64,000 nucleotides of DNA. Origin: Pseudoflavitalea sp. G-6-1-2. GTDB lineage: Bacteria > Bacteroidota > Bacteroidia > Chitinophagales > Chitinophagaceae. The stretch spans positions 806,001 to 870,000 of the forward strand of contig NZ_JABBGB010000003.1 in NCBI RefSeq assembly GCF_012927185.1. Direction: 5' to 3'. A program made the position numbers and the translations under genes. How positions within the stretch are numbered: the stretch's first letter is position 1; each line of letters opens with the position of its first letter. The notes under the pieces are model-generated. The model did no database searches, was not told the origin of the DNA, and saw only the letters and a list, made by a program, of their open reading frames with translations. Positions 7,414-36,708 of the stretch are shown here, piece by piece.

Positions 7414-7569
7414 CAGCCGGAGGCGGGGCAGCAACGCGGCAGACAAATATGCCCGGCAGAGCAGTATCTCCGATGGGCGTTGGTCAAATCGGATTAAGCG
7501 ATAGTAATACTTTTCAGCTTTCGCGCAACATATTTGAAGGCCTGCGTTGCTGAACCCCGCCTCCGGCTG
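7414..7569 (-). repeat. covarying-stem element, copy 1
   Basis: First of four related elements. In element orientation (minus strand) a left arm at 7544-7569 is followed by a core that starts GGCCTTCAAATATG near 7541, and the right arm is 7414-7437. The two arms are complementary over 24 bases with a 2-base bulge (CAGCCGGAGGCGGGG then CAGCAACGC). The core carries GCGAAAGC, CATCGGAG and CTGCCGGGCATATTTG. It begins 4 bases after the preceding stop codon. A conserved outer motif TTGCACATTCAGCGA lies at 7571-7588 on the minus strand. It is not a simple terminator because there is no T run. Confidence 0.8.
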
Positions 7570-7704
7570 ATCGCTGAATGTGCAACAGTAAACTTTGAAA
7601 AGGTTCATGCTTCTTCTGTTGATCATGTGATGCATTGTGCTGCTCATTATTTTGACATTCATTCATCAGTTGCCTTTTATCTGCTGCACCTTCAGCGACG
7701 TGCA

Positions 7705-7845
7705 GCAAAGGGATATGCAACGTTGGCCTACAAATATGTTGTACTGCAGTTCAGCCTTGTGTCGAAGTTCCATCCGATTCGATAATGTCGATCGGAGATA
7801 CTGCTCTGCCGGGCATATTTGTCAGCCGCGTCTCATATCCCTTTG
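7705..7845 (+). repeat. covarying-stem element, copy 2
   Basis: Second copy, inverted relative to copy 1 and 135 bases from it. The arms are CAAAGGGATATG (7705-7716) and its exact complement at 7834-7845, unrelated in sequence to the arms of copy 1. The core runs from GGCCTACAAATATG (about 7725) to the CTGCCGGGCATATTTGTCAGCC block (7804-7827). Positions 7791-7830 match the reverse complement of 7435-7474 at 39 of 40 bases. Outer flanks CTGCTGCACCTTCAGCGA (7681-7698) and GAAACCATTCCTGCAAT (7847-7863) resemble the flanks of copy 3. Confidence 0.8.
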
Positions 7846-7863
7846 TGAAACCATTCCTGCAAT

Positions 7864-8066
7864 AGACATTCTAAACATGCCATTTAATGAGTCTGTAATT
7901 ACTCAGTAACTGATCATCCAAACAATCGATTGATAACATTTCTCATATCCGCCTGTTGCCTTCATCCGGGCCTCCAGCCGCAAAAAACAGGGAAATAGGG
8001 CATATTTAGGGCTCCAATGTTGGTAAAATACCCGGAACTGGTAATCAGAACCTGCTGGTAAACACT
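7864..8066. other. intergenic DNA upstream of glmM
   Basis: About 200 bases between the repeat cluster and the glmM promoter. I see no open frame of note, hairpin or repeat copy in it. Confidence 0.4.
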
Positions 8067-8088
8067 TATTTTTGTACCCTTAATTTTG
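8067..8088 (+). promoter_or_regulatory. two candidate -7 elements upstream of glmM
   Basis: TATTTTTG at 8067-8074 and TAATTTTG at 8081-8088 both match TAnnTTTG. The second ends 5 bases before the TTG start codon at 8094 and would give a leaderless mRNA; the first would give a leader of roughly a dozen bases. No convincing -33 TTG was found at the usual spacing. Confidence 0.45.
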
Positions 8089-8093
8089 GAACC

Positions 8094-9473
8094 TTGGCAT
8101 TGATAAAAAGCATATCAGGCATTCGCGGAACAATTGGCGGCAACCCTGGCGATAACCTGACACCACTCGACATCGTAAAGTTCACTGCTGCTTATGGCAA
8201 CTGGATTCTCAGCAAAGATCTTCCCAAAAAGATTGTGATTGGTCGTGATGGACGCATCAGCGGCGCTATGGTGCAGCAGCTGGTTGTGAACACACTCATC
8301 GGTCTGGGAATCGATGTGATCGATACAGGTCTCAGCACAACACCAACTGTTGAGCTCGCCGTTGTCTGGGAAAATGCAGGTGGTGGCATCATCATCACAG
8401 CAAGCCATAATCCCAAAGAATGGAATGCACTGAAACTGCTGAACAATGCAGGTGAATTCATCAGCGGAGAAGATGGAGCAATCATCCTCGAATCAGCTGC
8501 AAAAGAAGATTTCAAATTTGCAACGGTGGACAAACTCGGACAGTACACTGTTAACGAAACCACTTTGCAAAAACACATCGATACCATCCTCCACTATCCA
8601 CTGGTTGATGTAAATGCTATCCGCGAAAAGAACTACAAAGTAGTAGTGGATGTGATCAACTCCACCGGTGCACTGGTAGTACCCGATCTGCTCAAAGCAC
8701 TCGGCGTTGGCGAAGTGATTGTGCTCAACGGAGAAGTAACCGGAAAGTTTGCACACAATCCCGAACCATTGCCTGAAAATCTCACTGAACTTGCCAATGC
8801 CGTACGCTCACATAAAGCAGACCTGGGCATTGCAGTAGATCCGGATGTAGACAGACTCTGCTTCGTTTGTGAAGATGGCAGCATGTTCGGAGAAGAATAC
8901 ACGCTGGTTGCAGTGGCCGACTATGTGCTGAGCAAAAGACCCGGCAATACCGTGAGCAATATGAGCAGCACCAAGGCACTGAAAGAAGTGACCATCAAAC
9001 AGGGCGGCGAATATTTCCCCTCAGCAGTAGGAGAGGTGAATGTAGTGAAGAAGATGAAAGAGAAGAATGCTGTTATCGGTGGCGAAGGCAACGGAGGCAT
9101 CATTGTACCCGATCTGCATTACGGACGTGATGCACTGATCGGTATCGGTCTCTTCCTGAGCGCGCTGGCAGCACATAAGAATGGCATCAAATCGTTCCGT
9201 GCAAAATATCCCGATTACTATATCTCCAAGAATAAGATCGAGCTCACCAATGGCATCGATCTGAACGCCATTTTCGACAAGATCAAGGCGAAATACAAAA
9301 ATCAACCGGTAAACACTGAAGATGGACTGAAGATCGAATTCGACTCGGACTGGGTGCATCTCCGCAGTTCCAACACCGAGCCGATCATCCGGATCTATGC
9401 CGAAAGCAGCTTCGAAACAACGGCCAATAACATCGCTTTACGCCTCATGCAAGACATAAGGGAGTCAATCTAA
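8094..9473 (+). CDS. glmM: phosphoglucosamine mutase
   Basis: 459 residues, a full-length alpha-D-phosphohexomutase. It interconverts glucosamine-6-phosphate and glucosamine-1-phosphate in the cytoplasm on the way to UDP-GlcNAc for peptidoglycan and LPS. Visible signatures are the phosphoserine loop TASHNPKEWNA (Ser104), the metal-binding DPDVDRLCF, the sugar-binding GGEGNGG and the C-terminal phosphate-binding RSSNTEPIIRIYAES. The start is TTG at 8094, giving (M)ALIKSISGIRGTIGG, which fits the conserved N-terminus; no ATG is available nearby. A phosphomannomutase activity cannot be excluded by sequence alone. Confidence 0.92.
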   Translation: MALIKSISGIRGTIGGNPGDNLTPLDIVKFTAAYGNWILSKDLPKKIVIGRDGRISGAMVQQLVVNTLIGLGIDVIDTGLSTTPTVELAVVWENAGGGIIITASHNPKEWNALKLLNNAGEFISGEDGAIILESAAKEDFKFATVDKLGQYTVNETTLQKHIDTILHYPLVDVNAIREKNYKVVVDVINSTGALVVPDLLKALGVGEVIVLNGEVTGKFAHNPEPLPENLTELANAVRSHKADLGIAVDPDVDRLCFVCEDGSMFGEEYTLVAVADYVLSKRPGNTVSNMSSTKALKEVTIKQGGEYFPSAVGEVNVVKKMKEKNAVIGGEGNGGIIVPDLHYGRDALIGIGLFLSALAAHKNGIKSFRAKYPDYYISKNKIELTNGIDLNAIFDKIKAKYKNQPVNTEDGLKIEFDSDWVHLRSSNTEPIIRIYAESSFETTANNIALRLMQDIRESI

Positions 9474-9633
9474 GGCTATTAATGTACTCAAACTCCGGTT
9501 TTGTACAGGATAATTTCCTTTTCGTCATACCCTTTGATGTAATGAGTGTGGTTTAGAAATAATTTCGGAAATTTGCGCCGGAATTATAACGGGCAGTCAG
9601 CCGGAAGGTCAGCTGTCAAATAAACTACACGCA

Positions 9634-10764
9634 ATGACTCAACGTATCTATTTCGATAATGCGGCAACCACACCATTGGATGCTACTGTGCTGGAAGCAA
9701 TGATGCCTTACCTTACGGATAAGTTCGGTAACCCGAGTTCAATCTATTCATATGGACGAGAGAGCAGACTGGCTATCGAGAATGCCCGTAAATCCGTAGC
9801 AAAGATCCTCAATGCACATCCTGCAGAGATCTTCTTCACATCAGGCGGAACGGAAAGTTCCAATACCGCTATCTGTGCGGCAGTGAGAGACCTCGGATGC
9901 AAACATATCATCACATCACCTATCGAGCACCATGCTACACTCCATACAGTAGAAAATCTCTACCATCGCGGAGAAGCAGCGCTCAGTTATGTGAAACTCT
10001 TACCAAACGGACATATCGACCTGGAAGATCTGGAGCAGATCCTCGCGGGCAGCGAAGAGAAATGTGTGGTAACGCTGATGCATGCGAACAACGAGATCGG
10101 CAATATGCTCGACATAAATGCAGTAGGGGAGCTTTGTAAAATGTACAATGCCATTTTCCATTCAGATACTGTGCAGACAGTAGGGCATTTCCCTTTCGAT
10201 CTGCGCAATACACCAGTGCATTTCATCACCGGAGCCGGACATAAATTCCACGGACCCAAAGGAGTGGGCATTCTCTACATCAATGAGAATGTGAAGATCA
10301 AGCCTTTCATTCAGGGAGGAGGACAGGAGCGCAACATGCGTGCCGGTACCGAAAACCTGTATGGAGTGGTAGGTTTCGCGAAAGCGCTGGAAATGGCTAC
10401 CGAAGGATACGAAACAGAAAGCGCCCATATCAAGGGACTGAAATTATACATGATCGAGCAATTGAAGAAGAACATCAAAGGTGTTAGCTTCAATGGTGAT
10501 CCGCTTGGCCGCAGCCTTTACACGGTGGTGAGCGTATCATTCCCTAAAACAGAGAAATCTGAAATGATACTCTTCAATCTCGACATCAGCAATATCTGCG
10601 CAAGTGGCGGCAGCGCCTGCACCAGCGGAGCCGATGCCGGTTCGCATGTGATCCGCGCCATCAACAACAACCCTAATCAGGTTACCGTTCGTTTCTCGTT
10701 CAGCAAACAGAACACCAAAGAGGAGATCGACTTCGTAGTGGAGAAATTGAAGGAGATGATTTAA
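9634..10764 (+). CDS. cysteine desulfurase (NifS/IscS family)
   Basis: A 376-residue PLP-dependent class V aminotransferase fold enzyme. It removes sulfur from L-cysteine and carries it as a persulfide for Fe-S cluster or tRNA thiolation. The PLP lysine is in GAGHKFHGPKG (K204), the substrate loop cysteine is in GGSACTSGA (C329), and SGGTESSNTAI contacts the cofactor. The active-site loop resembles group I enzymes. Neighbours (glmM upstream, a GH13 lipoprotein 26 bases downstream) give no hint of a partner scaffold, so iscS or a tRNA-sulfur role cannot be separated here. Confidence 0.93.
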   Translation: MTQRIYFDNAATTPLDATVLEAMMPYLTDKFGNPSSIYSYGRESRLAIENARKSVAKILNAHPAEIFFTSGGTESSNTAICAAVRDLGCKHIITSPIEHHATLHTVENLYHRGEAALSYVKLLPNGHIDLEDLEQILAGSEEKCVVTLMHANNEIGNMLDINAVGELCKMYNAIFHSDTVQTVGHFPFDLRNTPVHFITGAGHKFHGPKGVGILYINENVKIKPFIQGGGQERNMRAGTENLYGVVGFAKALEMATEGYETESAHIKGLKLYMIEQLKKNIKGVSFNGDPLGRSLYTVVSVSFPKTEKSEMILFNLDISNICASGGSACTSGADAGSHVIRAINNNPNQVTVRFSFSKQNTKEEIDFVVEKLKEMI

Positions 10765-10790
10765 CTTGGTTGCTCTAATCTGAGCAAACC

Positions 10791-12182
10791 ATGACTTCAT
10801 TCATACAACGTATTCTGGCGATGACTGCAGTAACAAGCTGCTTCATCGCCAGTTGTGCTTCCGGCCCCGACAAAGAGAAAGCAACAGAAAACAACAGCGG
10901 GAAAGATACCATTGCCGTAGCGCCGCCTCCGGATTGGATAAAGCAATCCAACGTCTACGAAGTGAATGTGCGCCAGTACACCAAAGAAGGAACCTTCTCA
11001 GCGTTCTCCTCGTCTCTGCCCCGACTGAAAGAAATGGGGGTGGATGTTCTGTGGTTCATGCCCATAACACCCATCAGCAAAGCAGACCGCAAAGGAACGC
11101 TCGGCAGTTATTATGCAGTATCGGATTACACTGCTGTGAACCCTGATTTCGGTACATTGGAAGATTTCAAAAAGCTGGTGCGCGAAGCACATGCGATGGG
11201 CTTCAAAGTGATCACCGATTGGGTAGCCAACCACACCGGCGCCGATCACAAATGGCTGGCCACACATGCCGATTTCTACAACCGTGGTAAAGATGGTCAA
11301 CCCATCTACGCATTCGACTGGAGCGATACCCGCGATCTCAATTACGATAACAAAGAGCTGCGCGACAGCATGACCGCTGCCATGCAATTCTGGCTTCGCG
11401 AAACCGATATCGATGGCTTCCGCTGCGACGTAGCTGCTGAAGTGCCCGCCGATTTCTGGAAGCAATGCATCGCGGATCTGAAGAAAACAAAACCCGGTAT
11501 TTTCATGCTCGCCGAAGGCGATAATGGTGAATTGCACCGGGCAGGATTCGATGCGAGTTATGCATCGGATATGTTCCAGCATACCAAAATGATAGTGGCC
11601 GGAACCCGCGATGCACTTACCCTCGACTCTGTGCTTACCCGCGAAGATGAAGGTTTCCCCAAAGGTGCCATCCGCCTCTATTTCACCAGCAACCACGATG
11701 AGAACAGCTGGAACAAAAGCGATTTCGGCACTTATCCCGGTCAGTCACATTGGCCATTTATGGTATTCACGCAAACCATGCGCAACGGTGTTCCATTGAT
11801 CTACAGCGGACAGGAAGAACCGATCCTTCGTGCCATTCCTTTCTTCGAGAAAGACAATATGGATATGAAGCACTTCAGGCGTGCGAAGATTTACAAAACC
11901 CTGCTGGAACTTCGCAAGAGCAATCCTGCATTGAGTACCGATGCCAGTTTCAAAAAGATTTCTGTGGGGGATGATAAAGCTCTCTACGCATACGTACGCG
12001 AAAAAGACAATCGTAAAATTCTGGTGATACTCAATCTCTCTCCCAAAGAGCAGACGATCCAGATAAAAGATACTTCCCTGGCAGGCAACCCGATGAATAT
12101 TTTCATGGGCTCCAAAGAACCCATCAGTGTAGGGCTCAGCTTCGGCATCGAGCCCTGGGGATATATCGTGTACGAATATTAA
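10791..12182 (+). CDS. GH13 alpha-amylase family lipoprotein
   Basis: 463 residues. The signal peptide ends at a lipobox (CFIASC, Cys near 23), so the enzyme is anchored in the envelope. The (beta/alpha)8 barrel holds the GH13 conserved regions: DWVANHTG, DGFRCDVAAEVP (nucleophile D213), FMLAEGDNGE (acid/base E242) and FTSNHDENSW (D303). A short C-terminal beta domain follows. It should act on alpha-1,4 glucans or maltooligosaccharides; exact specificity is not readable. The stop is 17 bases before the FGGY kinase start, so the two likely form an operon. Confidence 0.9.
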   Translation: MTSFIQRILAMTAVTSCFIASCASGPDKEKATENNSGKDTIAVAPPPDWIKQSNVYEVNVRQYTKEGTFSAFSSSLPRLKEMGVDVLWFMPITPISKADRKGTLGSYYAVSDYTAVNPDFGTLEDFKKLVREAHAMGFKVITDWVANHTGADHKWLATHADFYNRGKDGQPIYAFDWSDTRDLNYDNKELRDSMTAAMQFWLRETDIDGFRCDVAAEVPADFWKQCIADLKKTKPGIFMLAEGDNGELHRAGFDASYASDMFQHTKMIVAGTRDALTLDSVLTREDEGFPKGAIRLYFTSNHDENSWNKSDFGTYPGQSHWPFMVFTQTMRNGVPLIYSGQEEPILRAIPFFEKDNMDMKHFRRAKIYKTLLELRKSNPALSTDASFKKISVGDDKALYAYVREKDNRKILVILNLSPKEQTIQIKDTSLAGNPMNIFMGSKEPISVGLSFGIEPWGYIVYEY

Positions 12183-12199
12183 TACAAGCTAACGCGTTC

Positions 12200-13732
12200 A
12201 TGCAATTCATTATCGGACTCGACATTGGAACAACGCATACCAAAGCAATCGCCCAGCAAAGCGATGGAGTTGTGGTGGCCGTAACATCCGCAGGATACCT
12301 GCCCATCACAGCCCCCGATGGACGGTATGAACTGGATTGCGAAGAGCTGTTGCAGGCCGTTACCAATGTATTGCAACAACTGATGCAGTCGCTGAAACAG
12401 CAGGGCATTGCGCAGGCCCCGTCTGCACTGGCTTTCAGCAGTGCCATGCATAGTCTCATTGCAGTGGATGCGCAACTGCATCCGCTTACCAACTGCATTA
12501 CCTGGGCCGATCTCAGAAGTATTGAACAGGCAGAACGGCTTCGTGCAACCGATATGGCGATGGAGCTGTATCGGAACACAGGTACTCCTGTGCATGCGAT
12601 GTCTCCGCTCTGCAAGCTCATCTGGATCGGAGAGACCATGCCGGAGCTTCATCGCAATGCAGCGTCTTTTATCGGCATCAAGGAATATGTGATGGCGCAT
12701 ATGACGGGTGAGCGCATAATCGATCACAGCATAGCTTCCGCAACTGGTTTATTCGATATCCATAACAGAAGCTGGTTCAGGCCAGCGCTTGCATTGGCAG
12801 GTATCGACGAAAATCGGTTGTTCGACCCAGTTAGTACCGATCATATCATACAGGGCATCACAGAAGAGTGGGCTACCTGCACGGGTCTGCCTCAGAATAT
12901 TAAGCTCATTGCAGGTGCCAGCGATGGCTGCCTCGCCAATATCGGTAGCAATGCACTCTATCCCGGCGATCTCAGTGTAACGGTGGGTACATCAGGTGCA
13001 GTACGGATGTTATCGGATACGCCTCAGACTCACCCGCAGGCCAGCGTGTTCAACTACATTCTCGATGATGAATATTTTGTCTGCGGAGGTCCGCTGAACA
13101 ATGGGGGAGCGCTGTTGCAATGGTATGCAAAACAATTGCTGCAACGCGATGTACAGGCAGATACAGACATGCAATGGTTCTTCGATGAAGCAGCCACTGT
13201 GCCTTCTGGTTCAGACGGATTACTTTTTCTTCCTTACGTGCGCGGAGAACGCGCACCCGTGTGGGATGCGGGCGCCAAAGCCGCATTCGTTGGTCTCGAT
13301 CACCGGCATACGCGTGCACACGAGATGCGTGCACTCATCGAAGGCATCAACTATTCCATCTGCGATATCACCGATGCAGTTGCACAAACTGCCGGCAGCA
13401 TTCAAAATGTATTTCTGAGTGGTGGCATCACCCGATCACCTCAATGGATGCAATGGCTGGCCAACGCGATGGGTAAGCCATTGCAGGTTTCCGGTAATGC
13501 CGATGCATCTGCACTTGGCGCGGCTATTCTAGGATGGAAAGCGCTAGGGCATCTGAAGTCCCTGACAGATGCGCGGGATTTTTTTCAGGTTGCTCACACC
13601 TATCAGCCGGATAGGCTCACCCACCAATTGCACCAACAATTTTTCAGCGTCTACCGCAACCTCTACACATCACTGCAAAGCAGCTTTAAAGCTTTGCAAA
13701 CTATCCGGCATACGCATAATGATTTTCTTTAA
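12200..13732 (+). CDS. FGGY-family sugar kinase, gluconokinase-like
   Basis: 510 residues. The N-terminal ATPase-fold signature MQFIIGLDIGTTHTKAIA and the C-terminal GTSGAVRML and FLSGGITRSPQWMQWLANAMG define the FGGY carbohydrate kinase family. Length and the sequence around SSAMHSLIAVD and LPYVRGERAPVWD resemble FGGY gluconokinases and xylulokinases; I favour gluconokinase but substrate is an inference. It follows the GH13 lipoprotein at 17 bases. The downstream region folds into several hairpins ending in a terminator. Confidence 0.85.
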   Translation: MQFIIGLDIGTTHTKAIAQQSDGVVVAVTSAGYLPITAPDGRYELDCEELLQAVTNVLQQLMQSLKQQGIAQAPSALAFSSAMHSLIAVDAQLHPLTNCITWADLRSIEQAERLRATDMAMELYRNTGTPVHAMSPLCKLIWIGETMPELHRNAASFIGIKEYVMAHMTGERIIDHSIASATGLFDIHNRSWFRPALALAGIDENRLFDPVSTDHIIQGITEEWATCTGLPQNIKLIAGASDGCLANIGSNALYPGDLSVTVGTSGAVRMLSDTPQTHPQASVFNYILDDEYFVCGGPLNNGGALLQWYAKQLLQRDVQADTDMQWFFDEAATVPSGSDGLLFLPYVRGERAPVWDAGAKAAFVGLDHRHTRAHEMRALIEGINYSICDITDAVAQTAGSIQNVFLSGGITRSPQWMQWLANAMGKPLQVSGNADASALGAAILGWKALGHLKSLTDARDFFQVAHTYQPDRLTHQLHQQFFSVYRNLYTSLQSSFKALQTIRHTHNDFL

Positions 13733-13789
13733 CATTTTATTCTGTTAAGTTATTGCCAACTGGCGTGGGGATTGAACTACGGGCTGCGT

Positions 13790-13894
13790 ACAAGAGCGGA
13801 GTTTTCCGCGTCTTACAATTCTGTGGTTAAGTTTGAATTGGTCATCGCGCAACGTGACCAGGACTGCCGGGCGAAAGTCCGGCAGTTTTCTTTT
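13790..13894 (+). ncRNA. possible structured 3' UTR or small RNA
   Basis: Between the kinase and the convergent T9SS gene there are consecutive small hairpins: GCGGA/TCCGC (13796-13809), CAATTC/GAATTG (13816-13840) and TGGTCA/TGACCA (13839-13860, competing by two bases), then a strong terminator hairpin. No promoter was identified, so a processed 3' UTR is at least as likely as an independent RNA. Confidence 0.3.
13864..13894 (+). terminator. Rho-independent terminator after FGGY kinase
   Basis: Stem CTGCCGG/CCGGCAG with loop GCGAAAGT followed by TTTTCTTTT. Confidence 0.85.
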
Positions 13895-13902
13895 GTCCAA
13901 TG

Positions 13903-13932
13903 CAAAAAGCAGCAGAGCCGAAGCTCCGCTGC
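13903..13932 (-). terminator. Rho-independent terminator for the T9SS-sorted protein gene
   Basis: On the minus strand GCAGCGGAGC, loop TTCG, GCTCTGCTGC (one G-T pair), then TTTTTG. The UUCG loop is a stable tetraloop. It lies 22 bases past the stop at 13955. Confidence 0.85.
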
Positions 13933-13954
13933 TATTCCACTTTTTTCCTGCTCC

Positions 13955-15469
13955 TTATGGCATCACGATCGCCTGTTTGAGCACCAGCTCATTACCGGCA
14001 AATACATGCACCACGTAGGTTCCTCTGGAGAGAGGCGTTTGTTGTAAAGGCAGGGTTGCTATCTGTCCACGGGCCATTGAGCCCAGATCTTTTTTCAGCA
14101 ATTGCTGTCCTGCAATATTTCTGATCACCACCTGCAACTGGCTATGATCTTTTTCTGATTGAATGAAAAGCTGTTTATGCTGATCGAGTAAGGTTGGGTA
14201 AATTTTTGCCGATGTGGAAAGTTTTGTGTTGATGTTTACGATGGCTGAATATTTTTCAGGACCATCCTTGTCGATGATCTTCAAACGATAGAAAGCTGAA
14301 CCTGATGGGGCATTGCGATCGTTGTAGCTGTATCGTCTGCCATTGGGTACCGCCACTGCTTCGGTTGATTTTACTTCTCCGATTGCATTGTATTGTCTGC
14401 CATCCGTACTGCGTTCGATCACAAAGCGGTCTTCAGTGCTTTCCTTGCTGGTGGTCCAGCTGAGGGTTGAGCCGCTGCCGGTATTCCTTCCGTCGAAACT
14501 GATGAGGTTAACGGGAAGGGTTGACCCATAATTGAAGAACACACGGTTAGGGCCATGATTGCCGTAATATTCAAGCACCATGTTGATGTAACCTCCGGTC
14601 AGTTTTATTGCTTTGGAAGTCATATTGAAAGCAGCCTGATCGGCCCATTTGTCGATGATCCAGGTTGCGCCACCATCAAGGCTGAGACGATAACCGTCGT
14701 CGCCACCGGCAGTGAAGAGGAACCAGCCTGCGGCGAAACTCTTTCTCAGCCTGAAGCGTACGCTGAAAGTTTCTGCAATAGGGCGGCATGCATTGGTGGG
14801 AATAGTGGCTGTGGGGCCTCCCCAGTCTTTATCGATCTTTGAATTGCCATCACTTCCCCAATCTTCACCCATGTAGGTGTTGAAATTCTTTCCATCGTAG
14901 TAATAAGCTTTCCAATAGGTATCCTGGCCGTAAGTTTCTGTAGGGATAGTGCTCATACAGCTGGAAACACTGTAGGCAAAACTTACCCTGTTGGTAGATT
15001 TATTGCCGTAGTATTCCACTACGAGATTATGCGCACCGGTGGTAAGCAATACAGGCATCGTATAAACAGTGTAGGTCTGATCGAGCCATTCGTCGATCAT
15101 CAGAATGCCATCGACATACAGCTTTACACCGCCACTGGAGCCAACTTTAAAGTCGTATGTACCTCCTGTAAAATTGTGTGTAAGCCTTGCGCGCATACTG
15201 AAATTACTGCCATTTGCAGGGCATGTAAAAGTTGATGGCGAAGGTTTGTAGTTTCCGCTGAGTGTGATGTCGAATGCAGGATTGCCGATGCTTGCGCGGG
15301 CGTGATAGTTGGTTAAATTAAGGTCGCGATAGAAGTAGGCGTACCATACATTGCCTGATGGTGAAACAGATTGGTTGTCGGATTGTGCTGGGCAGCTTTG
15401 GCCATGCACAGGAGTTAGGGCATAGAGCAACAATCCACTGATAAATACCAGCAGTAGTTTACTTTTCAT
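13955..15469 (-). CDS. secreted protein with two PA14-like domains and a T9SS sorting domain
   Basis: 504 residues with a cleavable signal peptide ending near VHGQ. Two homologous PA14-like beta barrels follow (about residues 40-165 and 180-310), each with the pattern GG(V/Y)(K/R)LxxDGxxxxIDxW and LVVEYYGN or MVLEYYGN. Residues 320-415 look like an Ig-like or FN3-type linker opening LPVNLISFDG and including FVIERSTDG. The last 80 residues (IYPTLLDQHK to YVVHVFAGNELVLKQAIVMP) match a type A T9SS C-terminal sorting domain. PA14 domains often bind glycans. There is no recognisable catalytic domain, so a surface adhesin or glycan-binding protein is the best guess. Confidence 0.85.
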   Translation of the reverse strand: MKSKLLLVFISGLLLYALTPVHGQSCPAQSDNQSVSPSGNVWYAYFYRDLNLTNYHARASIGNPAFDITLSGNYKPSPSTFTCPANGSNFSMRARLTHNFTGGTYDFKVGSSGGVKLYVDGILMIDEWLDQTYTVYTMPVLLTTGAHNLVVEYYGNKSTNRVSFAYSVSSCMSTIPTETYGQDTYWKAYYYDGKNFNTYMGEDWGSDGNSKIDKDWGGPTATIPTNACRPIAETFSVRFRLRKSFAAGWFLFTAGGDDGYRLSLDGGATWIIDKWADQAAFNMTSKAIKLTGGYINMVLEYYGNHGPNRVFFNYGSTLPVNLISFDGRNTGSGSTLSWTTSKESTEDRFVIERSTDGRQYNAIGEVKSTEAVAVPNGRRYSYNDRNAPSGSAFYRLKIIDKDGPEKYSAIVNINTKLSTSAKIYPTLLDQHKQLFIQSEKDHSQLQVVIRNIAGQQLLKKDLGSMARGQIATLPLQQTPLSRGTYVVHVFAGNELVLKQAIVMP

Positions 15470-15901
15470 AACGGTTTAGCGTTTTACGGGCACAAGGGTT
15501 TAAAAAAAGGGCATAACAATCCTTGTTGCTGTTTGCAGCATCAGTTTAAGGGCATAAACTAACGCATACGCAGCAACGCAGAATACGTTCGGTATCAGGT
15601 TTAAATGATCAATGCGGGTAAGTGCGCGTCAGGTGTAACCATGCGAGTGACCTATGCAGCAAACTGCTTAAATAGCACTACATGCCTGAACAACGTTCAA
15701 TAAGGTTATTGTGGTTAGCATCGCTGGTAAGCGGGCGATGTTTCAAAAGGGCAGCTTAGGGAATAATGGCAGTTATTATAAGCCAGGATATTAGTTATAA
15801 GTACGGTTGGAAGCACGAATGTAACGCACGGATTTTACTTTTTAGTATACCCATGCACTTAACTCTTTCATTTATTGAGATAAAGCAAGAAATGAAAAAA
15901 A
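15470..15901. other. 432-base intergenic region between two minus-strand genes
   Basis: It should contain the promoter of the PA14/T9SS gene (start 15469). I found two copies of AGGGCATAA (about 15505 and 15550) and a small inverted repeat GTTTA/TAAAC around the second, but no gene and no clear TAnnTTTG at a useful distance. No copy of the covarying-stem element is present. Confidence 0.4.
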
Positions 15902-18514: not shown

Positions 18515-18519
18515 GGGGG

Positions 18520-18527
18520 CAAATATA
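18520..18527 (-). promoter_or_regulatory. -7 promoter element for mutS
   Basis: Minus-strand TATATTTG, exact TAnnTTTG, ending 5 bases before the mutS ATG at 18514. This fixes the start and predicts a leaderless or nearly leaderless mRNA. Confidence 0.55.
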
Positions 18528-18598
18528 AAGGCTTTGACGGCCTCCAAAAAATCCCGGAACCGGGTGTGGAGAATTCGTGGATTGTTTCTGACAACCAA

Positions 18599-18606: not shown

Positions 18607-18610
18607 CAGG

Positions 18611-20052: not shown

Positions 20053-20070
20053 TTCATTCAACAATATCTC

Positions 20071-26096: not shown

Positions 26097-26146
26097 AAGC
26101 AGGTTGTTGATTCAAATTATCAAAACTTAACTAAAATTCAAATAGT

Positions 26147-28837: not shown

Positions 28838-28851
28838 TTCACCTGCATTGA

Positions 28852-29922: not shown

Positions 29923-30036
29923 ATGCCGGATGGTTTAAAGGAGTAAATCAAAATATGACATAAATCCCGGAAAACCTACCTCGGCCCGCAGATTTGAACC
30001 ATTGTCAATTTCCTGTGTTTTATACAGTGTATACGC

Positions 30037-30044
30037 TATTTTTG
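30037..30044 (+). promoter_or_regulatory. -7 promoter element for lipB
   Basis: TATTTTTG, exact TAnnTTTG, ending 4 bases before the ATG at 30049; predicts a leaderless mRNA. Confidence 0.5.
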
Positions 30045-30048
30045 CAGC

Positions 30049-30777
30049 ATGAACACGCCACCCATCCCCGTAATTTTTGAAGATCTCGGCAATATGAGCT
30101 ACCAGGCCGCCTGGGATTACCAGGAGCAACTGCTGAAGCAGAAGGTAGAGCGTAAGTCGAGGGTATTCGCCAATTCAGGGGAGCCGGTGGTTGAAGAAGA
30201 CAATTCGCCGATTCCTCACCACCTGTTGTTCGTAGAACATCCGCCTGTGTACACGCTCGGAAAGAGCGGCAAGATGGAGCATGTGCTCATCAGCGAAGAA
30301 GAGCGCAACGCAAAAGGCATCGAATTCTTCAAGATCAATCGCGGTGGCGACATCACATTTCACGGCCCGCAACAATTGGTGGGTTATCCCATTTTCGACC
30401 TCGAACAATTCTATACCGATATCGGCAAGTATCTCCGCAATCTCGAAGAGGTATTCATCCTCACCATGGCAGAGTACGGTTTGAAAGGAGAGCGTTCGCC
30501 CGGAGAAACAGGCGTATGGCTCGATGCCGATGATTACACAAAAGCAAGGAAGATCTGCGCAATGGGCATCCGCTGCAGCCGCTGGATCACCATGCATGGA
30601 TTTGCTTTCAACGTAAACACCGATCTCGATTATTTCTCTTACATCGTTCCCTGTGGAATAGAAAACAAAGCCGTTACATCTTTACAAAAAGAAGTAGGCC
30701 ATGCGCTGGACATGGAGGAAGTAAAAGAAAAAGTAAAGAAGAATTTTGAAAAGGTCTTCAATATTACTGTAGGCTAG
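30049..30777 (+). CDS. lipB: lipoyl(octanoyl) transferase LipB
   Basis: 242 residues. It moves octanoyl from acyl carrier protein to the lipoyl domains of 2-oxo acid dehydrogenases and GcvH. Signature stretches: LLFVEHPPVYTLGKSGK, NRGGDITFHGPQQLVGYPI, and the catalytic lysine and cysteine in ARKICAMGIRCSRW (K168) and IVPCGI (C202). An insertion of about 20 residues (RKSRVFANSGEPVVEEDNS) near residue 40 is seen in Bacteroidota versions. A lipoylated E2 is encoded at 58872, a plausible substrate. Confidence 0.95.
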   Translation: MNTPPIPVIFEDLGNMSYQAAWDYQEQLLKQKVERKSRVFANSGEPVVEEDNSPIPHHLLFVEHPPVYTLGKSGKMEHVLISEEERNAKGIEFFKINRGGDITFHGPQQLVGYPIFDLEQFYTDIGKYLRNLEEVFILTMAEYGLKGERSPGETGVWLDADDYTKARKICAMGIRCSRWITMHGFAFNVNTDLDYFSYIVPCGIENKAVTSLQKEVGHALDMEEVKEKVKKNFEKVFNITVG

Positions 30778-30790
30778 AAAGCAGTATCCA

Positions 30791-31780
30791 TCAATCTTTC
30801 GGGATGAACACTTTGTGTGTTTCTTTCAGCTTCCCATCTTCATACAATTCAAATCTGAACCATCCTGAATGCAGGAAGGTTACTTTGTCGATGAGCAGCA
30901 TAGGATCGCGTACTTTCTTTATTTCGAACAGAAGACTCTGATCGTCTTCGAAGAATTTCACTTCGTAATCTTTTTTGAGTGCATCGTAGAGATCAATCAC
31001 CACATTGCCATCTCTGTCTGTAAACACAAAGCGCGATGGTTTGTAGATCTCGCGTGGTATATAGGGCCTCAGTACAATGGTGTCGAGGTTTTTGAAAGCG
31101 AGTGTGTCTTTGGTTTTGTACACGATGGAGTCGCGGAATTTTTTGAATCCTTTTTCGGGAATGGAGAACAGCAGGGAGTCGCGCTTCTTTACCACAAAAA
31201 ACTTCTCCGCCGGTTTTACAGGAGTGGCGGGCTTTGCAGCATTTTGCTTCAGCTCTGCCGGATCTTTGTAATAAGGATTGGTGGCCTTGATCGATTGCTT
31301 TTCCGATTCTTTGGTTGCTTCGCGCAGTTCTGTTTTCAGTTGCTCCACATCACGCTGGCTCATATTGTCTGCTACAACAATGCGGTGGTTGTTGTTCTCT
31401 CCGGTGAAATTGCCTTCTCTTGAATCGGGCCTTGCTCCGGCAACGGTATCCCAGTAAGGGCGTTTAACCGGACTAAAAACATACTGCCCGCCTTCGAGCA
31501 TAATGAAGAGACGATAGAAGAGATTGGGTGAATATGATTTTGTATCCACGAATCCGTTTTGCGGAACGGTGGGATCGGCAACATTCAGAATAGTGCGGAA
31601 ACCTTTTGTACTGTCTGTAGAACGCTGGATACTTATCTGCGCAACATTCCGGTAGTTGTTGGTCCAGCTGATGATAGCTTTATTATAACCCCTGGTGGTT
31701 ACGGTGAACCGGGGCAAAGTATCCTGTGCAAGGGAAGGAACGGAGATCAACAACAATAAACACACCCACAGCCTGTTCAT
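30791..31780 (-). CDS. secreted protein, FN3-like N-terminus, unknown function
   Basis: 329 residues with a signal peptide (ending SLAQ). Residues 25-120 have an FN3-like pattern (AIISWTNNYRNVAQISIQRSTDS, FVDTKSYSPNLFYRLF). A Lys/Pro/Ala-rich linker (about 155-195) leads to a C-terminal beta-rich domain with YEVKFFEDDQSLLFEIKKVRDPMLLIDK. I do not recognise a family. It converges with lipB with 13 bases between stops. Confidence 0.72.
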   Translation of the reverse strand: MNRLWVCLLLLISVPSLAQDTLPRFTVTTRGYNKAIISWTNNYRNVAQISIQRSTDSTKGFRTILNVADPTVPQNGFVDTKSYSPNLFYRLFIMLEGGQYVFSPVKRPYWDTVAGARPDSREGNFTGENNNHRIVVADNMSQRDVEQLKTELREATKESEKQSIKATNPYYKDPAELKQNAAKPATPVKPAEKFFVVKKRDSLLFSIPEKGFKKFRDSIVYKTKDTLAFKNLDTIVLRPYIPREIYKPSRFVFTDRDGNVVIDLYDALKKDYEVKFFEDDQSLLFEIKKVRDPMLLIDKVTFLHSGWFRFELYEDGKLKETHKVFIPKD

Positions 31781-31860
31781 GATAGCAATAACGATGTTTT
31801 TGTGTCTGTATTATTTAAGTTACAAATATAACGATCGTATCGTTGTCAAAATCCCTGCCA

Positions 31861-32787
31861 TTAATAACTCAGTAAACCGGCCGGGAGACTGCGATTCCCC
31901 TGTAATCCACCACTATGTATCATCAATACGCGGTTTCCGGATGTGAAGAAGTTTTTCTGCAGCAGGTCGTTTAATCCGAAAGCCATCTTGCCGGTGTACA
32001 CAATATCGGTGGGTATTTTGGTCTGCAGGTACAGTTCGCGCATGAAGCTGATCAGCTCCGGTTTATGTTTGCCGAAACCTCCGGAATGATAGTCGTAGAT
32101 GAGCTGATACCGGTCATTCAACGCATGTTTGCTGAGAAATTGCAGCAATGTGTTGTCGTTGGTATTGCTGAGTTTGAGGCTGCTGAAACCAAGTATCTGC
32201 TGATGCGGGAGGCTGCTGTTGATCAGTCCGGCCATCATGGTGGCAGTGCCCACTGCACAGGCGATATGCGAGTATCGGGCAAGATCGGGAACGAGTGTAA
32301 GTATCTCTGATGCGCCGAGAACGCCTTCGGCGCTTTGTCCACCTGAAGGGATCACCGCAAAATCCGGAAACTGTTCCTGCATTTTAATTTGCAGCATTTC
32401 TTCCTCACCATATTCAGTTCTGTTAACGAACAATAGTTCCATTCCGGCATTTTCTGCATCCTGCAAAGCGGGATTAAGGGGTTCATTTCTTTCGCCTCTT
32501 ACAATACCTTTGGCAGCAAAATTGTTAATCAATGCAGCTTCCGCTACTGCAACAAGGTGATTGCTCCAGGCGCCCCCGAAACTGAGGATGCCTTTGAAAC
32601 CCTTGCTCCGTGCGGATTGCAGGTGATATTTCAGTTTAAACCATTTGTTGCCGGAGATAACGGGATGAATGAGATCGAGGCGAAGCACATCAACAGGAAC
32701 AGCAATTGTTCCCCATTGTGAAAAATCCACCGGCTGAACAATTGCCCTGCTCAGATCAACTGTCTCGTATGGTGGTCTGGTGAACAA
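31861..32787 (-). CDS. PLP-dependent enzyme, ACC deaminase/D-cysteine desulfhydrase family
   Basis: 308 residues of the tryptophan synthase beta-like fold. The PLP lysine is in VISGNKWFKLKYHL, and FGGAWSNHLVAVA is the phosphate-binding neighbour. The family includes 1-aminocyclopropane-1-carboxylate deaminase and D-cysteine desulfhydrase; the two cannot be told apart here. The only suitable start is TTG at 32787 (MFTRPPYETVD); no in-frame ATG lies near it. Confidence 0.85.
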   Translation of the reverse strand: MFTRPPYETVDLSRAIVQPVDFSQWGTIAVPVDVLRLDLIHPVISGNKWFKLKYHLQSARSKGFKGILSFGGAWSNHLVAVAEAALINNFAAKGIVRGERNEPLNPALQDAENAGMELLFVNRTEYGEEEMLQIKMQEQFPDFAVIPSGGQSAEGVLGASEILTLVPDLARYSHIACAVGTATMMAGLINSSLPHQQILGFSSLKLSNTNDNTLLQFLSKHALNDRYQLIYDYHSGGFGKHKPELISFMRELYLQTKIPTDIVYTGKMAFGLNDLLQKNFFTSGNRVLMIHSGGLQGNRSLPAGLLSY

Positions 32788-32847
32788 GCGCCTAATATCG
32801 CATATTTTTATATTTTCGTGCGTGAATTTTTAAATCAAAACAGACAC

Positions 32848-33720
32848 ATGCAACCAACGCTCTTAATACTGGCAGCCGGGATGGCATCGCGGTATGGCAG
32901 TATGAAACAGATACAGTCTTTTGGACCTGGAGGCGAAACCATCATGGACTATTCGATTTATGATGCAATCCGTGCCGGTTACAAGAAAGTGGTGTTTATC
33001 ATCAGAAAGGAATTTCATCAGGATTTTGCTGATATTTTCGAGCCGAGGCTGAAGGGCAAAATTGAGATCGATTATGTGTATCAGGAAGTAACCGATGGCA
33101 GAACCAAACCATGGGGTACAGCACAGGCGGTTCTCTGCGCCAAAGACGCCATCAAAGAACCATTTGCCGTAATCAATGCAGATGATTTCTATGGCCGTGA
33201 TGCATTTGAGAAATCATACAAATTCCTCACATCCGATGTAAAGCCTGATGTATACAGCATTATCGGATATGAGTTGCTGAAAACATTGTCCGACAACGGA
33301 ACCGTAAACCGCGGTGTTTGTCAGGTGAATGCAGAGGGCAACCTGAGTTCTATCGCCGAGCGACTGAACATTGCCATGAAAGATGGAAAGATCCTTTGTG
33401 ACGACGATCAGCAGCCGAAAGAGCTGGATACAAACTCTAAAGTATCCATGAACTTCTGGTGCTTCGATGCATCTGTGTTCAGCTATACAGAAAACCTGTT
33501 CAATGAATTCAGAGCTGCCAATGCCGGCAATCCGAAAGCGGAATTCTTTATTCCGCTGATGGCCGATCAATACATTCAGGAAAAAGCGGGTGTTATCAAA
33601 GTGATCCCTACTTCATCCAAATGGTTTGGCGTAACGTACAAGGAAGATGCTCCTGAGGTGAAAGCTGCGCTGGAAGCGCTGGTGAATGCAGGTGAATATC
33701 CTCCTGCGCTCTGGAAATAA
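32848..33720 (+). CDS. sugar nucleotidyltransferase family protein
   Basis: 290 residues from the ATG at 32848. The N-terminus MQPTLLILAAGMASRYGSMKQ is the nucleoside triphosphate-binding signature with an unusually direct reading GMASRYGSMKQ instead of the common GxGTRLxP. VINADDFYGRDAFE holds the metal-binding aspartates. It should join NTP to a sugar phosphate or make a related activated product. The frame opens at GTG 32818, but the ATG gives the conserved start. A terminator follows. Confidence 0.85.
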   Translation: MQPTLLILAAGMASRYGSMKQIQSFGPGGETIMDYSIYDAIRAGYKKVVFIIRKEFHQDFADIFEPRLKGKIEIDYVYQEVTDGRTKPWGTAQAVLCAKDAIKEPFAVINADDFYGRDAFEKSYKFLTSDVKPDVYSIIGYELLKTLSDNGTVNRGVCQVNAEGNLSSIAERLNIAMKDGKILCDDDQQPKELDTNSKVSMNFWCFDASVFSYTENLFNEFRAANAGNPKAEFFIPLMADQYIQEKAGVIKVIPTSSKWFGVTYKEDAPEVKAALEALVNAGEYPPALWK

Positions 33721-33742
33721 TCAATTGATACAAGCATAAATA

Positions 33743-33775
33743 AAGCCCCGTGCAGAACTGCAACGGGGCTTTTTT
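33743..33775 (+). terminator. Rho-independent terminator after nucleotidyltransferase gene
   Basis: AAGCCCCGT pairs with ACGGGGCTT, with an inner GCAG/CTGC stem, followed by TTTTTT. Confidence 0.88.
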
Positions 33776-33826
33776 ACTATCAGAGCTAAAACGGAAACTT
33801 TACAAGAATGCAAACAGAGTTTTTGA

Positions 33827-34924
33827 TCAATAGCTTTTAACCATGAACACGCAGTCTTCGATCTTTTTGATCTGCTGAACCCGGTCCATGCCCTTTATCT
33901 GGGTATTGGAAGGCAGTTTCAGATTGCGAAACGTACTGTCTTCTTTTTTAATTGTCTCAAGTGTGCGGATAATGTTTTTTGCAGTGAGGGCAAACACCAC
34001 ACCTTCGGCCTGTTTGAGGCGGGTATTGATGATACCGATCACTTCGCCATTGCGGTTGAACACGGGGCCGCCTGAGTTGCCGGGATTGGCGGGTACACCA
34101 ATCTGGCAGGTGAGCGTATCGCCGTTGTATCCGGTCTTGGCGCTCATATATCCTTCGTTGTAAACGATCTCTTCGCGGGGGAAGCCCAGTGTGAACAGAG
34201 GCTCTCCGAGATCGGAACCTCCTTTGCGGAAGGAGTAGGGAAGAACGGAATGCACTTTAAAATCGTCGTCGCTGATTTTGAGGATCGCCACATCTGAATT
34301 GTAGTTCACGTAGGCGGTCTGAGCGCGGAATTCCTGTCCTTTATTATTCTGAACAATGAAGGTAGAACCTCCCTTAATAACGTGTGCGTTGGTAACGAGG
34401 TAACCTTTACCGTCGATAAGAAAGCCTGTACCTCCTGAAATGGGTTCGGCGTCGACCGGAGCTTTGGAGATTTTGGAAATCACTTCATCCAGTACTTCAT
34501 TCTTTTTATTGGCTACTTCTATTTTGAATTCGCGGCGGAGCTGTTGCAGCTCTGCATTGCTGGCCTGGCGTGTGTACCAGCTTACGCCACCGGCGATGAG
34601 CAGGGTAGTGATGCCGGCTATGGAAGCGGCAACACCCATTACTTTTTTGTATTTGCGGAAGATGGAAACCACTGTGGCTTTTGGAGCGGTTTCGGTGATC
34701 TCACCCGATTCGGTGAGTTGATGATGTACATCCTGCAGGGTGGATTTGAGATTTTTCCACTCACCGAACTGATCCATCTGCTGTAAGAACATGGTATGTT
34801 CCACTACCAGCTGGTCGATTTCGGGATTTGATTTCCGCAGTTGCTCAAAGTGCGCTTTTTCTTCCTGAGGCATTTCGTTTCTCAGGTAGCGTTCAATGGC
34901 ATCCATCAGTTGAAGATCTTCCAT
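33827..34924 (-). CDS. anti-sigma-like N-terminus fused to a membrane-anchored trypsin-like protease
   Basis: 365 residues from the ATG at 34924 (a GTG one codon upstream is also possible). Residues 1-75 are a helical cytoplasmic domain (DAIERYLRNEMPQEEKAHFEQ) like Bacteroidota anti-sigma factors. One transmembrane helix lies at about 96-115. A coiled stretch leads to an S1C/DegP-type protease domain with the full triad: VTNAHVI (H181), NSDVAILK (D211) and GVPANPGNSGGPV (S284). No PDZ domain is present. The start overlaps the stop of the sigma gene (TGATG), so they are translationally coupled. I infer that the protease domain acts in the periplasm and that the N-terminus may bind the sigma factor. 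Confidence 0.85.
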   Translation of the reverse strand: MEDLQLMDAIERYLRNEMPQEEKAHFEQLRKSNPEIDQLVVEHTMFLQQMDQFGEWKNLKSTLQDVHHQLTESGEITETAPKATVVSIFRKYKKVMGVAASIAGITTLLIAGGVSWYTRQASNAELQQLRREFKIEVANKKNEVLDEVISKISKAPVDAEPISGGTGFLIDGKGYLVTNAHVIKGGSTFIVQNNKGQEFRAQTAYVNYNSDVAILKISDDDFKVHSVLPYSFRKGGSDLGEPLFTLGFPREEIVYNEGYMSAKTGYNGDTLTCQIGVPANPGNSGGPVFNRNGEVIGIINTRLKQAEGVVFALTAKNIIRTLETIKKEDSTFRNLKLPSNTQIKGMDRVQQIKKIEDCVFMVKSY

Positions 34925-35496
34925 CACAGGTTATTATTGTTTTTGTATGCACTGAAAAACAGTTTTTTCAGGCGCATCAGACATTTGTATTTCTGGTTCT
35001 TGGCATTATCGGCATTGGTGTAGCCGAAGTTGCCTGCGATCTCGGTCATGCTTTTCTTCTGAAGGTAGAAGGCATCGATGAGGCTCCGGCATGGTTCGCC
35101 GAGGTTCATCATGGCTTTTTCCATCATCTGGTAGGCGATATTCCGTTGGCCGAGAGCATCGAGTTCTTCTTCAACGGGTACCAGTTCTTCCAGACCGTTT
35201 ACATCTGACACGAATTTCTGCTGCTGTTGCAACCTTTTGAGCCAGAGGCGTCTGCACACGGAGTACAGATAGGTTTTGAGCAGGCAGTTGAGCTCGAAGC
35301 TGTCGCTTTTTGCTTTTTCATACAGTACGATCATGGCTTCCTGGAAGATGTCCCTTGCGTCGTCTACACTGCCGTTGTTATTCAGTATCAGGGCCTGTAC
35401 CATATTATAATGTTGCTTATAAATGGTTTCAATGGCCTGTCTGTCGTTTTTTGCCAATCCTTCCAGTAATGCTATTTCTCTGGGGTCTGTTTTCAC
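34924..35496 (-). CDS. ECF-type RNA polymerase sigma factor
   Basis: 190 residues from the GTG at 35496 (VKTDPREIALLEGLAKNDRQ). Region 2 is seen in IYKQHYNMVQALILNNNGS and VDDARDIFQEAMIVLYEKA, and region 4 in FYLQKKSMTEIAGNFGYTNADNAKNQKYKCL. An AAGG lies about 8 bases upstream of the GTG; the frame can be read from TTG 35520 too. Cotranscribed with the coupled membrane protease gene, which is probably its regulator. Confidence 0.88.
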   Translation of the reverse strand: MKTDPREIALLEGLAKNDRQAIETIYKQHYNMVQALILNNNGSVDDARDIFQEAMIVLYEKAKSDSFELNCLLKTYLYSVCRRLWLKRLQQQQKFVSDVNGLEELVPVEEELDALGQRNIAYQMMEKAMMNLGEPCRSLIDAFYLQKKSMTEIAGNFGYTNADNAKNQKYKCLMRLKKLFFSAYKNNNNL

Positions 35497-35695
35497 GCGT
35501 AACCTTTTATTAATACCCAAAATGAGGAGAAGTAACCCACAAATTCCTTGTTTTTAAGGAGCTTTTCCCGCTCGCAAGATCGCTAATTCCGGGCCAAGGA
35601 AAAAAAATTACAATTTTTTTTAACGGGGCAGGTTACCTTTTGGGTGACCGGGGTATTAATCTTCAAATCATTCGATAACAAAACAAAAAGAAACA

Positions 35696-35896
35696 ATGAA
35701 AAAGCTCCTGTTTGTATTCGCTGTAGCTGCATTTGCTGCTTGTAACGATTCTGGTTCTGCTGAAGCTCCTAAAACTGATTCTCCTGCAGTAAACACTCCT
35801 GCTGTTGATACTACTCAGAAAGTTGACACTAGCGCTACTATCAAAGCTGACACTACTGTTAAAGCTGATACTACTGCTAAACCAGCAGCTCACTAA
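35696..35896 (+). CDS. small Thr/Asp/Ala-rich lipoprotein
   Basis: 66 residues. MKKLLFVFAVAAFAAC is a lipoprotein signal with Cys at 16. The remaining 50 residues are low-complexity with repeats of the type KADTT and VDTT (KADTTVKADTTAKPAAH). Such short disordered lipoproteins are frequent in this group and have no known role. A terminator about 100 bases downstream closes the unit. Divergent from the sigma/protease operon. Confidence 0.75.
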   Translation: MKKLLFVFAVAAFAACNDSGSAEAPKTDSPAVNTPAVDTTQKVDTSATIKADTTVKADTTAKPAAH

Positions 35897-35993
35897 GAGT
35901 TTAGTTCACTTTATTCATATGGCAAGCAATCGTTAGAGGCCATCCTGTTCGCAGGAGGGCTTTCTTCGATCGCTTGCCAATTTTGAGTAGAAT

Positions 35994-36023
35994 AGCCGTT
36001 TCAAAAGCTGAAACGGCTTTTTT
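35994..36023 (+). terminator. Rho-independent terminator downstream of small lipoprotein gene
   Basis: AGCCGTTTC pairs with GAAACGGCT around a 7-base loop, followed by six T. Confidence 0.88.
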
Positions 36024-36054
36024 GTGCCTGCACATTGCTGAATGGGTTTCTTCG

Positions 36055-36193
36055 TTGGGAGGAATTTTTCAGGGCTGCCAAATGTGCCGGCCAGTATTGT
36101 AACTCCGATGGACTTAGGTAGGTAGGATTGGGCGGTGGTGCTACACCGGGCTTTCGTGCAAAACATTCGAAGGCCCTGAAAAATTCCTCCCAA
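36055..36193 (-). repeat. covarying-stem element, copy 3
   Basis: The arms 36055-36075 and 36173-36193 are perfectly complementary over 21 bases and differ from the arms of every other copy. An outer GGGTTTC/GAAACCC stem continues at 36044-36050 and 36200-36206. In element orientation (minus strand) the core has GGCCTTCGAATGT, TTGCACGAAAGCC, CAATCCTACCTACCTAAG, CCATCGGAG and GGCCGGCACATTTGGCAGCC. Flanking motifs shared with copy 2 lie at 36211-36227 (TGCTGCACCTCCGGCGA) and 36034-36050 (GAAACCCATTCAGCAAT), both read on the minus strand. Confidence 0.85.
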
Positions 36194-36560
36194 CTCCGAA
36201 ACCCGCAGTTTCGCCGGAGGTGCAGCAAAAAAAGACCTGTTTGCAGCTTTTGTTTTTTGGGGAGGGAAGAGGTCTGGGAAGCATCATAAACTGCATAAAA
36301 ACTGCAGAGCAATACCTGAAGTATTGCTCTGTAATGGCACTGTACTGGCTGACTTCCCCTTTAAAAGCGCTGAAAATAGGCTGAATACTGGCTGAAAATA
36401 GGCTGAAATATGTATGTCAACGTATGGACTCTGTGAGTCCATCCATACAGCGGGTTCCACCCTCCATTCATTTCTTTTCCTCAATCGAAGCCGGTATAAA
36501 ATAATTGCAGAGTCGATTCCACTCAACCAGACTTTAAAACCAGCCCCCGCAGCGGGTGAG
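36194..36560. other. spacer between two inverted repeat copies, with short repeats
   Basis: 367 bases with no convincing gene. It contains a hairpin AGAGCAATAC/GTATTGCTCT (36306-36330), a run of four 11-base units near GCTGAAAATAG (36369-36412), and a TGGACTC/GAGTCCA hairpin (36425-36441). Confidence 0.6.
36369..36412. repeat. four tandem 11-base units
   Basis: GCTGAAAATAG, GCTGAATACTG, GCTGAAAATAG and GCTGAAATATG follow one another without gaps. Units 1 and 3 are identical. Confidence 0.75.
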
Positions 36561-36708
36561 GGGCAATGGGGTATGCCTTTGGTGGCCTTCGGGCATGGTG
36601 CACGAAAGCCTGGCATAGCACCACCGCCCAATCCTACCTACCTAAGTCCATCGGAGTCACAACACTGCCCGGCATGCCTGTCGACACCAAAGGCATACCC
36701 CTTTGCCC
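36561..36708 (+). repeat. covarying-stem element, copy 4
   Basis: Arms 36561-36584 and 36685-36708 are complementary at 23 of 24 bases (GGGGTATGCCTTTGGTG inside) and unlike those of copies 1-3. The core from GGCCTTCGGGCATGG (36584) to the CTGCCCGGCATGCCTG block (36665-36680) aligns with copy 3 without gaps; 42 consecutive bases from AGCACCACC on are identical. The inner stem GGGCATG/CATGCCT replaces AAATATG/CATATTT of copies 1 and 2. Confidence 0.85.

Follow-up and report, generated by a model that had tools for sequence, protein, structure and literature searches.

Hairpin pairs in the analysed window

The window analysed here is a stretch of 64,000 nucleotides from Pseudoflavitalea sp. G-6-1-2 (Chitinophagaceae; contig NZ_JABBGB010000003.1, positions 806,001 to 870,000), and the subject is a family of hairpin elements of about 145 nt, four copies of which lie in it as two pairs. 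In pair 1, copy c1 (7414–7569, minus strand) on the left and copy c2 (7705–7845, plus strand) on the right enclose a spacer at 7570–7704, which has short matches only to other spacers, chiefly inverted GTGCA/TGCAC boxes at its edges. Pair 2 consists of c3 (36055–36193, minus strand) and c4 (36561–36708, plus strand), left and right of a spacer at 36194–36560. The 3′ end of c1 begins 4 bases past the stop of a plus-strand open reading frame (ORF) at 5331–7409, an orthologue of which is present in all five of the other genomes of the genus. Here and below, genes are mechanically called ORFs, used without curation.

The coordinates and strands given for the four copies in a preliminary description are exact. 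From GGCCT to the end of CGGAG, c1 measures 75 bases and the other three copies 73, as described there (the starts lie 68, 68, 68 and 70 bases apart), and the 30 bases that follow form a gap-free alignment of all four. The observation that the terminal arms differ between copies and yet pair within each also holds for all four, and the pairing is above chance by shuffling and arm-swap tests. That the arms differ "completely" was a slight overstatement, since many of those listed share a loose GGG-(A/G)TATG stretch.

Size and distribution of the family

A BLAST search of the host genome (G000, 6.1 Mb) returned 18 matching stretches, and a profile search of the window together with 11 loci (12 sequences) identified 22 copies with E ≤ 1e-3, one weaker row having been dropped. 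A covariance model built from host copies only (these 22; hereafter R1) found at least 59 copies in the host genome at E ≤ 0.01, with 150 of 1391 candidates scored. The preliminary description spoke of a four-copy element and suggested a covariance model as a check; the search brought out many further copies with covarying pairs. Five further Pseudobacter/Pseudoflavitalea genomes (G002, G060, G061, G062 and G063, all Chitinophagaceae) were compared with the host. At E ≤ 0.001, the six genomes hold at least 59, 90, 85 and 79 copies, and 0 and 0, among the candidates scored; these per-genome numbers are lower bounds, 150 candidates having been scored per genome for the host and genus counts.

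Searches of wider scope scored fewer candidates and used stricter filters. Among 60 genomes of the family, R1 matched only in G000, G002 and, weakly, G052 and G023; outside the genus, this unselected search thus matched in only 2 of 58 genomes, and those matches are also hairpins. Among 149 genomes of the order, matches appeared in G000, G084 and G234. There was no Rfam match at gathering score in the window or in four of the array loci described below. The following analyses use the copies within fetched loci: 59 in G000, 57 in G002, 40 in G060 and 34 in G062.

Predicted fold and covariation

Each copy is predicted to fold into an outer stem of variable arms, a conserved internal loop whose 5′ side carries GGCCTT, an inner stem, which in the majority of host copies reads CAAATATG/CATATTTG, and a large loop, the conserved interior comprising about 100 nt. 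The arms form a median of 24 Watson–Crick pairs per copy (range 15–37 in G000 and 13–40 in G002). Across the 22 copies, standard pairs make up 80.6% of 612 pair cells, compared with 60.5% after shuffling, a value that none of 500 shuffles reached; with the alignment slid as a control, 37–51% of cells pair. Changes on both sides occur in 25 of 28 pairs. Scores of a copy's own arms have medians of 57 (G000) and 60 (G002); combining an arm with one from a different copy lowers the median to 21. The distributions touch, the own-arm minimum being 36 and 27 and the swapped maximum 36 and 48 in the two genomes, respectively.

Three further features were considered and not adopted as defining ones. 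Extra structure inside the loop was rejected, as there is little covariation past the inner stem: among 91 sequences, the best cases have 15 and 6 double-changed cells, both on the other strand. G-quadruplex motifs in the opposite-strand loop are enriched, being found in 15/59, 28/57, 16/40 and 21/34 copies, against 10.4, 15.3, 10.7 and 11.4 in shuffled sequences. In the window, the opposite strand of the c3 and c4 loops (36055–36193 and 36561–36708) carries GGTAGGTAGGATTGGG, a possible two-tier G-quadruplex. A GCAC box before the hairpins is striking by eye, but its strict pattern occurs in only a minority of copies (19/59 and 18/57, with 2 and 0 in controls).

Compensatory evolution at orthologous loci

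Many copies are retained at orthologous places in related species, whose flanks are 80–92% identical. Thirty of the 57 G002 copies have an orthologue among the 40 fetched from G060 (flank identity 91.5%) and 20 have one among the 34 from G062, while 13 of the 59 G000 copies have one among the 57 from G002. Between G002 and G060, 558 of 611 arm pairs are unchanged, 19 are changed on both sides and re-paired, 1 is changed on both sides and broken, and 33 are changed on one side (13 to G.T and 20 to a broken pair); 14 further pairs involve gaps. Expected numbers of double changes were derived from the per-site change rate, with sites assumed to be independent. On this basis, the 19 re-paired double changes compare with 0.7 expected by chance, and the corresponding figures are 40 against 5.0 for G002–G062 and 26 against 4.8 for G000–G002. 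Folding is therefore maintained locus by locus, and the differences in arm sequence between copies reflect drift under conserved pairing.

Selection on a folded strand, either RNA or single-stranded DNA (ssDNA), is consequently well supported. This was one of two explanations put forward in the preliminary description, and compensatory change at orthologous loci bears it out as far as folding is concerned. The other, a copying process that rebuilds both arms together, is not needed in its wholesale form because compensated pairs mostly occur singly or in twos, in runs of at most three within G002, G060 and G062 and at most five against G000.

In one G002 copy (L128:2025-2169 and just past its 3′ end), the 3′ arm is repeated in tandem together with a short part of the 3′ side, which could be the trace of a replication slip or template switch.

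Arrangement and placement at gene ends

The fetched loci contain 71 cases of neighbouring copies less than 2.5 kb apart, and all 71 are divergent, with none tandem and none convergent. In G000, 42 of the 59 copies belong to such outward-pointing pairs and 17 are single. Spacers measure 61–2388 bp in G000 and 66–1886 bp in G002, and those of unlike loci share short matches only, of up to 59 bp. Loop similarity within a pair exceeds the average (0.668 vs 0.594 in G000, 0.738 vs 0.671 in G002), and the partner's loop ranks first in 11/42 and 10/46 comparisons, respectively; the arms within a pair show no above-average likeness in either genome.

The 40 close pairs flanked by ORFs in G000 and G002 include 20 between convergent, 18 between co-directional and 2 between divergent genes. 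Of 116 copies examined in these genomes, 3 are without a called ORF on the 3′ side. The 3′-side ORF lies on the opposite strand for 79 of the remaining 113, and 71 of these 79 ORFs end 8–125 bp from the hairpin; 34 of the 113 copies depart from this placement. Bidirectional terminators of convergent genes are similar in consisting of hairpins near stop codons, and half of the close pairs do stand between convergent genes. The present elements differ from them in being 145-nt hairpins with a conserved interior of about 100 nt and in that, at pair 2, terminator-like stems with T runs lie outside the element, as judged by eye.

Two ideas about the pairs were discarded. Invertible spacers are not indicated, as orientation is kept in five of five G002–G060 orthologous spacers, in one case after allowing for the orientation of the locus, and a search for a partner hairpin beside single copies found a long inverted repeat within 700 bp for just 1 of 28. 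Some G002 spacers (e.g. L098, L105, L124 and L127) carry a recurrent TGACGCACTCTTTCCCCATCCC-like motif in either orientation that resembles the GCAC box and consists of a second copy of that box plus a pyrimidine tract.

Occupied and empty sites in related genomes

At the locus of pair 2, the stretch 36026–36832 (about 810 bp) is reduced to 84–90 bp in G002, G060 and G062, flanked by the same two terminator-like stems, so that both hairpins and the spacer are jointly absent; G061 and G063 have a different, longer sequence there, without the element. The locus of pair 1 is without the element and without an extra gene in G061 and G063. A methyltransferase-like gene, named by eye, is present there without the element in G002 and G060, and together with an element pair in G062. 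The comparison of window positions 7846–8094 with L151, L153 and L157 places this gene in G002, G060 and G062 and not in the host.

Similar sites in integron-like arrays

The weak R1 matches in G052 and G023 are hairpins with long stems of their own. Used as a query with 4 candidates scored per genome, the G023 hairpin has matches in at least 57 of 195 genomes of the family and at least 40 of 101 genera, and none in G000, G002, G060 and G063 among the candidates scored. In 16 fetched regions, the sites found in this way stand between genes, and successive full-length sites are on the same strand in 25 of 25 cases. Their 3′-side ORF is on the opposite strand in 38 of 40 cases, in 28 of which the site is within 20 bp of the ORF end, and AAC and GTT are near-invariant at the ends of 37 aligned sites. 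Cassette-like arrays are seen in L246 (G084:C4:438000-450000), L248, L252, L257 and others among L244–L259.

In three genomes (G084, G190 and G072), an array has a tyrosine recombinase no more than about 4 kb away. For the two array recombinases examined, the integron-integrase model (cut-off 265) gives 182 and 188 bits and the XerA/integron model (cut-off 220) gives 211 and 206 bits. The arrays of Chitinophagaceae are thus integron-like, with a nearby tyrosine recombinase in three genomes that is XerA/IntI-related but stays under the curated integron-integrase cut-off. The array recombinase is found in 9 of 14 genomes with array sites (the source genome plus eight at 44–59% identity). In the six genus genomes, it has only 27–37% matches, to Xer-like genes, and the integron integrase model TIGR02249 is over its cut-off in none of the six.

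The window-type hairpins resemble the array sites in fold and, weakly, in loop sequence. In 190 kb of array loci, R1 gave 25 matches at E ≤ 1 (best 2.6e-5), every one of them on an array site; 22 of these sites are full-length and 3 partial. A profile of G000 loops alone places 19 of its 23 matches on array sites (best E 0.0097); these sites account for 2.6% of the strand-wise sequence. Loop profiles from G002 and from three genomes do so for 5 of 9 and 21 of 26 matches, and profiles from the arrays back for 11 of 24 and 10 of 17, single matches being weak.

Integron attC sites have been described structurally and recombine as the bottom strand (PMC2727003, PMC8352920). The window-type sites share with them a long imperfect palindrome whose arm sequence is free to vary while pairing is kept, a predicted stem interrupted by an unpaired spacer, a position just after a gene and in opposite orientation to it, and a fold and loop like those of array sites of the same bacterial family. 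They differ in their longer variable outer arms, in being retained at fixed chromosomal loci in a genus where no IntI or array integrase was found, and in lacking both conserved cores and cassette arrays: AAC and GTT triplets occur together in only 13/59 (G000), 14/57 (G002) and 7/34 (G062) copies, and instead of an array in one orientation there are only divergent neighbours. As R1 finds array sites, loop profiles agree in both directions by enrichment and the reverse model made from array sites (R2) finds host copies only non-significantly, the family can be regarded, with moderate confidence, as attC-related but not attC. The preliminary description, whose author knew of no named family with this form, did not take into account the attC site, which is the nearest kind and gives a partial answer. 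Salinibacter ruber is the Bacteroidetes genome with a complete integron in the data set of PMC9024848. In the literature searched, which covers the field in part, no paper on dispersed attC-like hairpins or on integrons of Chitinophagaceae was found.

Interpretation and alternative explanations

The family is real, abundant, selected for folding and mostly attached to gene ends. The explanation that we favour, with a probability of about one half, is that the hairpins are single-strand relatives of the attC-like sites found in an integron-like cassette system of Chitinophagaceae and are now kept as gene-end structures. In the Pseudobacter/Pseudoflavitalea lineage, such sites would have come to be scattered at gene 3′ ends, most commonly, it appears, as two sites between convergent genes, each facing one gene. 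They would share descent with the array sites, and either the scattered sites may have arisen from arrays or the reverse. Each site would be kept for a host function as a folded gene-end structure, a view suggested by the failure to find the array integrase in the genus and by the lack of conservation of the attC core triplets. Candidate roles are the stopping or insulation of convergent transcription, or protection of 3′ ends.

Several observations weigh against this explanation. R1 recovers only 22 of 41 full-length array sites, the 190 kb of array loci were picked via L054, itself an R1 match, and R2 yields no significant match to the copies in the host loci (best on an element, E 3.5). Consequently, common descent of window-type and array sites is probable, not proven. 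Strand evidence for the window-type sites also conflicts. Isolated arm mismatches favour the sense strand (47 G.T vs 18 A.C over four genomes, p = 4e-4, with orthologues counted more than once), as does the inner stem in G000 (G.T:A.C = 15:1). The inner-stem ratio is 0:4 in G002, 0:3 in G060 and 0:1 in G062, and the opposite strand is predicted to be more stable as RNA, the sense strand being lower in 0/57 copies of G002, 0/34 of G062 and 17/59 of G000. At array sites, the arm mismatches are 62 G.T vs 16 A.C, and the sense strand is predicted to be more stable in 28 of 41. Finally, at pair 2, and at the pair 1 locus of G062 compared with G002 and G060, both hairpins and the spacer occur or are missing jointly, and such joint presence or absence of whole units is not predicted by a view of one site per gene alone.

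The same observation speaks for a unit that is still mobile, hairpin–spacer–hairpin, moved as folded ssDNA between convergent genes by some recombinase such as the host Xer. The presence or absence of entire units between the same genes in congeners, the many copies confined to four of six genus genomes and the outward orientation of all 71 neighbours would suit it. Many copies nevertheless sit at orthologous places in species with 80–92% flank identity, the spacers of different units have only the short matches noted above, no dedicated recombinase was found in the genus genomes, and no element lies in any of the 14 loci examined near Xer-like or Y1 genes, two of these loci being from element-free genomes. 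A XerC-type recombinase as genus-specific partner was considered and rejected: the G000 and G002 genes adjoin a riboflavin-synthase-like gene and resemble ordinary XerC by eye, and their fetched loci are without the element. Continued mobility of this kind is accordingly viewed as unlikely.

It seems quite improbable that the hairpins are miniature mobile elements of the REPIN/BIME type, spread by a Y1 (RAYT-type) transposase. They do recall REPINs in being extragenic inverted doublets with variable spacers, present in many copies at gene ends (REPINs in PMC3116915 and REPs in PMC3733652). At about 145 nt, however, their unit has at least double the length of the longest REPs (REP length about 20–60 bp), and their arm sequence is not conserved. 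Y1_Tnp genes occur in all six genus genomes, two of which are element-free, and the five Y1 loci checked in G000, G002 and G060 are without the element, so that a linked Y1 transposase was not found there. The genus carries a short Y1_Tnp gene in all six genomes (L020, L174, L175; G000:C3:744654 and relatives), which may be domesticated because in G000 it lies, by eye, inside an apparent aromatic-amino-acid gene cluster.

It is similarly doubtful that the arms are kept paired mainly by template switching of DNA (palindrome correction), with little or no function. Template switching has been described as maintaining hairpins in RNA genes (PMC8794818), and the arms, which are long and poor in wobbles (47 isolated G.T among 3469 interior positions), are in keeping with it. 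However, compensation mostly concerns single pairs, one-sided changes are common (33 vs 19 re-paired double changes between G002 and G060), and a mutational drive leaves the conserved inner stem, loop motifs and placement unexplained.

The Bacteroidetes −7 promoter motif is TAnnTTTG. Regulatory RNAs transcribed from divergent promoters within the spacers, which the outward-facing copies and the sense-strand wobble excess in the arms might suggest, are highly improbable, as this motif (the only promoter type considered) occurs 3 times on the sense and 7 times on the other strand within 150 nt upstream of 190 copies, and the window is without an Rfam match.

Significance

Even if the hairpins are mere gene-end structures, they are an abundant structural element, for which no name was found, with unusually strong compensatory evolution, and the family can be used to test template switching against stepwise compensation. 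How integron cassettes acquire their attC sites is, to our knowledge, unsettled. Dozens of attC-like hairpins at chromosomal gene ends, conserved in place and co-varying, would allow this acquisition to be studied directly. A bolder reading, which we consider distinctly unlikely, is that the scattered hairpins form a reservoir of attC-like sites on the chromosome, attached to individual genes and kept folded by the host for gene-end duties. If true, they would represent the step that is missing between ordinary genes of the chromosome and the cassettes of integrons: through such sites, genes could pass into the integron-like arrays seen in related Chitinophagaceae, or may have come out of them.

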